Virus record (IMG/VR): IMGVR_UViG_3300021197_000117
Coordinates: 1-22,361 of that record
Direction: 5' to 3' (one strand)
Origin: a virus
DNA length: 22,361 nucleotides
Program-made: the position numbers and the translations under genes
The notes under the pieces: generated by a model
Database searches by the model: none
Seen by the model: the letters and a program-made list of their open reading frames with translations, nothing else
Told to the model about the DNA's origin: nothing
Shown here: positions 14,847-16,294 of the stretch, one piece after another
Layout: each line of letters starts with the position of its first letter
Numbering within the stretch: the first letter of the stretch is position 1

Positions 14847-15221
14847 ATGGGTTATACACTAGGTCCACGCAGTAGAGATAACCTTGAGGGGGTCCACACG
14901 GACCTCCAACGGGTTGTCGAGAGAGCCATTGAGATCACTGACAAAGACTTCACAGTCATTGAGGGCTTACGGTCTAAGTCTCGTCAACGTGAGCTTGTCA
15001 ACGATGGTAAGTCTAAGACTATGAACTCTCGTCACCTTACTGGTCATGCTGTAGATATCGCACCATGGCCTATCTCATGGGACTGGGATGAGTTCTACCC
15101 TATAGCTGATGCTATGAAGGAAGCCGCTGATGAACTTGGGGTTGCCCTTGAGTGGGGTGGTGACTGGAAAAGCTTCCCTGACGCACCTCACTGGCAACTA
15201 TCACGAAAGGTCTATCCATAA
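14847..15221 (+). CDS. Endolysin, M15-family L-alanyl-D-glutamate / D,D-peptidase
   Basis: A 124-residue zinc peptidase of the VanY/M15 type, close in design to phage T5 endolysin, which cleaves peptide cross-bridges in murein at lysis. Zinc ligands are visible as His63 in SRHLTG, Asp70 in AVDIAP and His115 in PHWQ; Asp112, three residues before the last His, fits the catalytic acid; and Glu102 in LEWGGDW is conserved in the family. There is no signal peptide or SAR anchor, so access to the wall requires a holin. It opens the lysis cassette and overlaps the next gene by TAATG. Confidence 0.9.
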   Translation: MGYTLGPRSRDNLEGVHTDLQRVVERAIEITDKDFTVIEGLRSKSRQRELVNDGKSKTMNSRHLTGHAVDIAPWPISWDWDEFYPIADAMKEAADELGVALEWGGDWKSFPDAPHWQLSRKVYP

Positions 15222-15487
15222 TGAGCCAAGATCACCAGTGGCACTTGAGCAAGAGTGTCCCAATCACCTTTATCTTTGCTATCATCATGCAGACCATTGC
15301 TCTTATCTGGTTCGTTGCTACCCTACGTAATGACGTAGACTCAAACCAGAAGGAGATCGTAAGGCTTGACACACGTACGAGCAGCCTTGAGTTAGTCGTA
15401 CAAACCCAAGCCATTACCCTTGGACGTATAGATGAGAACATAAAGTCTATCCGTATGATCTTGGATAGTATGGCACGTGAGAAATGA
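15221..15487 (+). CDS. Single-pass membrane protein with coiled coil (lysis cassette)
   Basis: An 88-residue protein with one transmembrane helix at about residues 13 to 34 (VPITFIFAIIMQTIALIWFV) followed by a heptad-patterned helix to the end (DSNQKEIVRLDTRTSSLELV and onward). The architecture, short N-terminus, one TM and long periplasmic or cytoplasmic coiled coil, recalls i-spanins (Rz) but also single-pass lysis regulators. Since a unimolecular spanin candidate lies downstream, a separate i-spanin seems unnecessary, so an antiholin-like or accessory lysis role is at least as likely. It sits between endolysin and holin with a TAATG and an ATGA overlap. Confidence 0.72.
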   Translation: MSQDHQWHLSKSVPITFIFAIIMQTIALIWFVATLRNDVDSNQKEIVRLDTRTSSLELVVQTQAITLGRIDENIKSIRMILDSMAREK

Positions 15488-15738
15488 AGACATTCAAGAG
15501 AGAGCTTGCGGTAGTCCTGTTGTTGTGGCTGGTCTACCTAGTGGAAACGAAGGGGATAGACATTGTTGAAGTACTTGTATGGCCTGTCTTTTCGTTTGCC
15601 GCTGCTGCTTTTGGGTTTGATGCTTATGGTAAGTTGCAGCAAGGGTCCACTAAGTCTTCTTACAGGTGGCGGTCCCAACGTAGCAGCCAACGTACAGGCG
15701 GGGAAGACCAACAGTCAGACGATTGGCACAACAAGTAA
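15484..15738 (+). CDS. Putative holin, two transmembrane helices
   Basis: An 84-residue protein with two predicted membrane helices, about residues 7 to 21 (ELAVVLLLWLVYLVE) and 28 to 46 (EVLVWPVFSFAAAAFGFDAY), a basic N-terminus (MKTFKRE) and a polar, charged C-terminal tail. This is the usual pattern of class II holins, which accumulate in the inner membrane and open at a set time. The start is an ATGA overlap with the previous gene. The last 176 bases are shared, in another frame, with the u-spanin gene, so the second helix and the tail are encoded on top of the spanin signal peptide and linker. Function is inferred from topology and location. Confidence 0.7.
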   Translation: MKTFKRELAVVLLLWLVYLVETKGIDIVEVLVWPVFSFAAAAFGFDAYGKLQQGSTKSSYRWRSQRSSQRTGGEDQQSDDWHNK

Positions 15739-15952
15739 CATAGCCCCCACGGTAAGCATCAGGCCTAATGCAAGGGTTGACAGAGTTGACCAGAGCACAA
15801 CGCAGACTAAGGTGTCATCAGATGAAGTACACACCGTTGTCATTAACGAAGTACCAGCTTGGGTGATACTACTGCTAATCCTTGGCTGGCTCCTGCCCTC
15901 ACCACAAGAGATAGCAAGAGGCTTTCTAAAACTATTCGGAAGGAAGACGTAA
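15563..15952 (+). CDS. Putative u-spanin (unimolecular spanin), TTG start
   Basis: A 129-residue protein with the two-ended layout of phage T1 gp11, which spans from outer to inner membrane and fuses them in the last step of lysis. The N-terminus is a lipoprotein signal (Lys3, Arg11, then LPLLLLGLMLMVSC) with the lipobox Cys at residue 25. The middle is a Thr/Ser/Asn-rich periplasmic linker. The C-terminus has an inner-membrane helix at about residues 98 to 111 (VPAWVILLLILGWLL) followed by a basic cytoplasmic tail. No ATG fits: TTG at 15563 has AAGGGGA seven bases upstream, and TTG at 15566 is an alternative. T1 gp11 is of nearly equal length (131). The gene is nested in the holin gene for its first 45%. 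Confidence 0.75.
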   Translation: MLKYLYGLSFRLPLLLLGLMLMVSCSKGPLSLLTGGGPNVAANVQAGKTNSQTIGTTSNIAPTVSIRPNARVDRVDQSTTQTKVSSDEVHTVVINEVPAWVILLLILGWLLPSPQEIARGFLKLFGRKT

Positions 15953-15953
15953 C

Positions 15954-16220
15954 ATGGCCAAAGAGAAAGACCCACGCCTCAAGCGAGCAGGTGTGTCAGG
16001 CTTTAACAAACCCAAAGCTACCCCTAGCCACAAGAGTAAGTCTCATGTTGTTGTCGCTAAAGAGGGTGACAAGATTAAGACCATTCGCTTTGGACAGAAG
16101 GGTGTCAAGGGCAGTCCTGATGGAAGCGCAAGGAACAAAGCATTCAAGGCTCGTCATGCAAAGAACATTGCCAAGGGTAAAATGAGTGCAGCCTACTGGG
16201 CAGACAAGGTTAAGTGGTAA
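15954..16220 (+). CDS. Conserved basic phage protein, 88 aa
   Basis: A small, strongly basic protein starting MAKEKDPRLKRAGVSGFNKP. It contains HKSKSHVVVAKEGDKIKTIR, GQKGVKGSP and a C-terminal FKARHAKNIAKGKMSAAYWA segment. I recall near-identical motif strings in small uncharacterised proteins of marine podoviruses and cyanophages, but no function is known to me. The charge and the RHAKNIAKGK helix suggest nucleic-acid binding. It is the last gene of the late operon, starting one base after the spanin stop (GGAAGGAAG upstream) and ending just before the terminator. Confidence 0.8.
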   Translation: MAKEKDPRLKRAGVSGFNKPKATPSHKSKSHVVVAKEGDKIKTIRFGQKGVKGSPDGSARNKAFKARHAKNIAKGKMSAAYWADKVKW

Positions 16221-16228
16221 ACACAAAG

Positions 16229-16264
16229 AAGCCCCCAAGGATTTTACTCCAAGGGGGCTTTTTT
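16229..16264 (+). terminator. Terminator between the convergent arms
   Basis: AAGCCCCC (16229-16236) pairs with GGGGGCTT (16253-16260), with an inner GG/CC pair, followed by TTTT (six Ts in all from 16259). This is a strong intrinsic terminator for the + strand late genes. Read on the - strand the same stem is followed by CTTCTTTG, so it may also stop the convergent early transcript, though less efficiently. Confidence 0.9.
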
Positions 16265-16294
16265 GCTTGTCTGAGGAACTCGTTCCGACTTCTG

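Follow-up and report, generated by a model that had tools for sequence, protein, structure and literature searches.

The window, that is, the whole stretch of 22,361 bases that makes up the source record, has as its nearest named relatives the Cobavirinae (Zobellviridae) roseophages SIO1, P12053L, ICBM1-3 and T5S1-k141_653015, and its phage is taken to be a Cobavirinae-like marine podovirus, in a group related to phages of Roseobacter-type bacteria. We focus here on its lysis cassette, in which an M15 endolysin is followed by an 88-aa one-TM protein, an 84-aa two-helix protein, a lipoprotein and a small basic protein, with ATGA-type junctions connecting the genes. The features are as follows.

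14847-15221, plus strand: M15-family peptidase, the endolysin that opens the cassette (PHROG 465 endolysin, 3e-62; Pfam Peptidase_M15_4, 49 bits, cut-off 25).
15221-15487, plus strand: protein of 88 aa, with a single TM at the N-terminus and a tail that is helical or coiled-coil-like (weak phrog_19911 match, 1e-4; conserved in the cassettes).
15484-15738, plus strand: 84-aa two-helix membrane protein, class II holin-like (ATG start overlapping the preceding stop, ATGA; motif in 98 distinct sequences).
15550-15555, plus strand: SD-like AAGGGG 5' of the spanin TTG, inside the codons for the inter-helix loop of the holin-like protein (from the sequence).
15563-15952, plus strand: u-spanin of 129 aa, with lipobox Cys25, periplasmic linker and C-terminal TM (NF037952, spanin2_3).
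15563-15637, plus strand: overlap part B1, spanin signal peptide and lipobox on helix 2 of the holin-like protein; holin frame dominant (fourfold divergence).
15638-15738, plus strand: overlap part B2, start of the mature spanin (GGGPNVAANVQAGKTN) on the tail of the holin-like protein; spanin frame dominant, tail kept open (fourfold divergence; stop-making sites).
15954-16220: small basic protein, phrog_7595 (C-terminal motif KAFKARHAKNIAKGKMSAAYWADKVKW).

The endolysin, the 88-aa TM protein, the 84-aa gene and the spanin are all present in 46 retrieved sequences. The 88-aa protein bears the motif HLSKSVPITF and lies here upstream of the 84-aa gene; in SIO1, ICBM1-2 and P12053L, the gene of this family is found directly 3' of the spanin. 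At the other end of the cassette, the C-terminal motif of the small basic protein is very widespread, with at least 590 viral-contig relatives, and the protein resembles the terminal part of a DNA-pilot/minor head family (phrog_220). Beyond it, between convergent gene arms, lies a terminator-like hairpin (AGCCCCC...GGGGGCTTTTTT, 16229-16266), which the scan did not pick up, a long loop being the probable reason; in ICBM1, a bidirectional terminator is annotated at the equivalent position. A promoter scan found no excess.

The central feature of the cassette is the overlap of the third and fourth genes. The open reading frames 15484-15738 (ATG, 84 aa) and 15563-15952 (TTG, 129 aa, +1 frame) are real and have 176 bases in common, and, as the original prediction held, one stretch of bases (15563-15637) encodes helix 2 of the holin-like protein in one frame and the lipoprotein signal of the spanin in the other. 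The spanin start does lie inside the holin-like frame, as had been proposed; its exact position needs amending, since either the TTG at 15563 or that at 15566 may serve. In the window this TTG start goes with an imperfect SD sequence (AAGGGG), while 34 of 51 relatives possess a better ATG start. An SD match of at least 4 bases precedes the spanin in 46 of the 51, compared with 26% of background +1-frame starts, although the former count is inflated, each relative being scored by its best candidate start out of several. Around the start, the RNA is no more stably folded than shuffled sequences (z 0.56). The nesting itself is independent of which start is chosen: from the first base of the lipobox Cys codon (15635-15637), the holin-like ORF has 104 bases still to run, so that with any start that includes the signal the overlap amounts to at least about 146 bases.

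The identity of the downstream gene as a u-spanin is well founded. The 129-aa protein matches NCBIfam NF037952, a curated bacteriophage spanin2 family (spanin2_3), scoring 102.4 bits where the cut-off is 80; all 45 aligned spanin relatives match the family at E 1e-3 or better, and it is homologous to SIO1 gp22 (tblastn 1e-9); SIO1 and P12053L were placed in one u-spanin family by Kongari et al. 2018 (PMC6139136). The lipobox, LMVSC, follows a hydrophobic stretch, and its -3 residue (M) lies outside the strict consensus. The predicted lipobox Cys25 is invariant among the 45 aligned relatives, together with L33, G37, N43, Q45, G47, N50, Q52 and P114, and lipidation at this residue is to be expected. 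Cys25 is also the sole cysteine of the mature protein, and all 58 u-spanins surveyed previously were without a periplasmic cysteine beyond the lipobox (PMC6139136). The C-terminal TM that had been placed at 98-111 (PAWVILLLILGWLL) is conserved within a hydrophobic stretch of about 98-113, with W100 present in at least 90% of relatives and the invariant P114 in the same region; the AF2 model, of low confidence overall, has a helix at 99-110 with a block pLDDT of 84-88 there. Among bacterial genomes, two relatives of the u-spanin were found, both in Rhodobacteraceae MAGs.

The 84-aa protein is a more difficult case. Its AF2 model, also of low confidence (mean pLDDT 63.5), contains helices 4-22 and 24-56 and a disordered tail 60-84. 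The hydrophobic pattern is conserved in 40 relatives, in which R6, P34 and G44 are invariant, and the charges (KTFKRE before helix 1, an acidic loop and a K/R-rich tail after helix 2), judged by eye only, would fit an N-in/C-in pattern. In its two helices, its small size and its place in a lysis cassette, and perhaps in its charges, it resembles class II holins, of which phage 21 S21 is an example, although no sequence similarity was found and no dual start is seen in the window. Profile searches of PHROGs, Pfam and NCBIfam gave nothing above noise, the 40 relatives match no PHROGs or Pfam family, no solved structure was matched by sequence, and fold searches with the low-confidence model gave no useful match. 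No relative was found in bacterial genomes, and tblastn against named phages gave no match at E 1, though one exists in PQ867845, which was located via its spanin. In other relatives, the slot just 5' of the spanin is occupied by small membrane proteins of different families, one of which (in contig L024) matches the holin family phrog_4237. The earlier identification as a holin thus keeps the support of the two-helix model, the cassette position and this same-slot holin, and lacks a family match for the protein itself. Since no library recognises the protein and its slot-mates are membrane proteins, the label rests on topology and position, and that the protein is a holin is plausible but not proven. 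Three further contigs carry small membrane-protein genes that overlap the u-spanin start by about 35-60 bases in +1 phase (L034:2745-3014, L039:2754-3002 and L040:2330-2569); those of L034 and L039 belong to phrog_10198, and the three may constitute an independent case of the same arrangement.

Conservation of the nesting among related phages, which the original prediction had named as its first check, is complete in the sequences retrieved. The spanin lies in the +1 frame in 98 of 98 distinct sequences with the holin motif, and its lipobox Cys codon precedes the holin stop in 96 of the 96 that could be scored automatically, the stop falling 0 to 59 codons beyond the Cys. The other two of the 98, L202 (at a contig end) and L240 (a motif variant), escaped the search pattern and have the same arrangement by eye. 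Relatives were taken from the best 80 matches of each search (for the holin family, the best 80 of 320), with more distant relatives falling outside; within these, about 60 contigs recruited by the spanin carry the holin frame, and recruitment by the holin-like protein alone gave a +1-phase spanin in 69 of 69 distinct sequences. Apparently broken holin frames in L245, L248 and L249 were an artefact of where the match began, the frames being intact. A quick tree of mature spanins, with its root on the cobaviruses, groups the nested spanins into a single clade of 102; there are nine exceptions, among them L003, a fragment from a contig end whose spanin is nested after all. The non-nested spanins outside the clade suggest that the spanin is older than the nesting, which arose once or a few times, a point that we do not press on a single quick tree.

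Selection can be read in both frames. Across 15563-15738, where a comparison of synonymous-site constraint had been proposed, synonymous change in either frame is reduced wherever the other is the conserved one. Fourfold divergence, computed pairwise rather than under a full phylogenetic model (93 sequences, 1,056 pairs), is 0.55 for the holin frame outside the overlap, 0.26 in B1 and 0.06 in B2, and for the spanin frame 0.56 outside the overlap, 0.18 in B1 and 0.47 in B2. The depressions have non-overlapping intervals, except that of the spanin frame in B2, where there is a slight overlap, and the 13 closest non-redundant relatives agree (holin, p = 2e-4; spanin B1, p = 7e-6; spanin B2, p = 0.09); the depression of the spanin frame in B2 is weak. 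Divergence by codon position runs.24/.07/.47 in the holin-only part and.23/.12/.31 in B1 (both in the holin frame), then.17/.12/.44 in B2 (spanin frame) and.33/.27/.58 in the spanin-only part, the period following the holin frame up to the lipobox and the spanin frame beyond it. The dominant frame under selection therefore switches at the lipobox, from helix 2 of the holin-like protein to the mature spanin. In B2 of the 13 relatives, the third bases that can make a holin stop vary among A, C and G and are never T, up to the shared stop; this avoidance, combined with the holin-frame divergence, indicates that the residues of the tail are little constrained, yet the tail is kept open. In B1, the stop-making T occurs at 0 of 101 sites (50 sequences). 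This zero is in part a given, as such a T would close the holin frame; what matters is that sequences recruited by the spanin still keep the holin frame open. Conservation and selection in both frames thus show that the overlap is real dual coding.

Our best explanation, which we hold with good confidence, is that this is the lysis operon of a Cobavirinae-like podovirus in which the gene for a class II holin-like protein also encodes, in the +1 frame, a whole u-spanin lipoprotein signal. Holin activity, lipidation, membrane topology and independent initiation are what we infer from the sequences and models, and the working of the cassette would be as follows. Each frame would have its own start, that of the spanin, with its SD-like site, lying inside the inter-helix loop codons of the holin. 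The 84-aa protein would insert into the inner membrane as a hairpin and permeabilise it, thereby allowing the M15 endolysin to reach the wall. The u-spanin, with the lipid at Cys25 in the outer membrane and its C-terminal TM anchored in the inner membrane, would finally fuse or disrupt the outer membrane. That one stretch of RNA ties together the first and last steps of lysis, as had been pointed out, is correct and trivially so for any operon. The overlap would be tolerable because the two proteins have opposite needs on either side of the lipobox: before it, the holin would need exact helix residues and the signal peptide only hydrophobicity; after it, the mature spanin would need exact residues and the holin tail would only have to stay open and hydrophilic.

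It might be argued that just one of the frames is a gene and the other is open by chance. Open frames are common in this DNA (83 ORFs of at least 60 aa in 22 kb), and 44% of synonymous recodings of the window's holin-like gene leave the spanin frame open, so that an open alternative frame alone is no evidence. In the opposite direction, however, the holin frame is open in just 1.2% of synonymous recodings of the spanin, and homology, the invariant Cys and frame-specific synonymous depression in both frames across some 90 sequences all speak against chance, a reading to which we give next to no credence and which these comparisons of sequence already refute. The hydrophobicity of both helices is also above that of most recodings, which indicates that the code by itself accounts for the double hydrophobic coding only in part. 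Programmed +1 frameshifting, joining the two frames into a holin-spanin fusion, would account for a phase that is always +1. Start codons with SD-like sites, on the other hand, precede the spanin in nearly all relatives, no common slippery site is evident on inspection and the RNA fold is ordinary; a fusion would also put an N-terminal TM on the spanin and spoil its lipoprotein signal. We regard this reading as very improbable.

The remaining two readings accept dual coding. The 88-aa one-TM protein (15221-15487) is a candidate rival, which may be a holin, an antiholin or an i-spanin-like protein; were it a class III-type holin, the 84-aa protein would serve as antiholin or as a regulator of lysis. 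Genes with one or two TMs close to the spanin have been reported as possible holins and antiholins (PMC6775973), and the 88-aa family adjoins the u-spanin also in SIO1, ICBM1-2 and P12053L, whose cassettes, like that of ICBM3, contain the u-spanin and lack the 84-aa holin-like gene. Against such an exchange of roles, which we think rather unlikely, stand the occupants of the slot directly 5' of the spanin elsewhere, small membrane proteins of other families that include one PHROG holin, and the 88-aa protein's own weak match to the Rz-like phrog_739 (E 0.12). Alternatively, the overlap may be regulatory, with ribosomes on the holin-like gene limiting or feeding initiation at the spanin and so setting the ratio of the two proteins. 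Nesting is kept in all 98 sequences even though the holin tails vary so widely in length beyond the Cys, and the ATGA-type junctions point the same way; the start-region RNA, however, shows no special folding, cobaviruses manage without the overlap, and the embedding of o-spanins has been judged to gain coding capacity only (PMC6139136). Regulation through the overlap seems to us just as doubtful as the exchange of roles.

Setting the holin-embedded u-spanin beside known systems, the same homologous lipoprotein, with its GGGPNVAANVQAG motif and C-terminal TM, is found in SIO1 and P12053L (PMC6139136) and in ICBM1-3 (PMC6775973), where the spanin gene follows the endolysin or a hypothetical gene with little or no overlap and is not nested in a holin. 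In the embedded Rz/Rz1 of lambda and in the overlapped P2-type genes, a lipoprotein signal likewise lies out of frame inside another lysis membrane-protein gene; there, the host gene encodes the i-spanin, a partner in the same complex, whereas here the host gene is holin-like and the spanin unimolecular. The T1 gp11 u-spanin family, including KP34, has by published description a common u-spanin topology and is a different family; in KP34 the holin lies downstream of the spanin, the two overlapping by 8 bases, and there is no nesting of the present kind. Within the Cobavirinae, T5S1-k141_653015 (PQ867845) has the same nesting, with an annotated spanin2 and a 60-aa holin-like frame across its start (L165:1832-2014) that the deposited record leaves unannotated. 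The view that such nesting is not a standard arrangement agrees with the open-access literature, where u-spanins appear as stand-alone genes (PMC6139136, PMC9636201). None of the open-access papers searched describes a u-spanin within a holin gene; subscription papers were little covered, and priority is not certain. It is the gene architecture that is new, the component parts being of known kinds, and we lean towards regarding it as a spanin architecture beyond embedded, overlapped, separated and plain unimolecular, kept throughout a clade of marine phages, with the lipobox marking the point where the most strongly selected frame changes.

This is an out-of-frame lipoprotein signal embedded in a lysis gene other than that of the i-spanin and kept in about 100 sequences. 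Selection is readable on each frame, and since the tolerant part of one protein sits on the strict part of the other, the pair provides a natural case for how overlapping genes share constraint. The PQ867845 record, which annotates one frame only, illustrates how lysis genes get missed. For phages of marine Rhodobacteraceae, in which few holins have been assigned, the cassette supplies concrete holin and u-spanin candidates.
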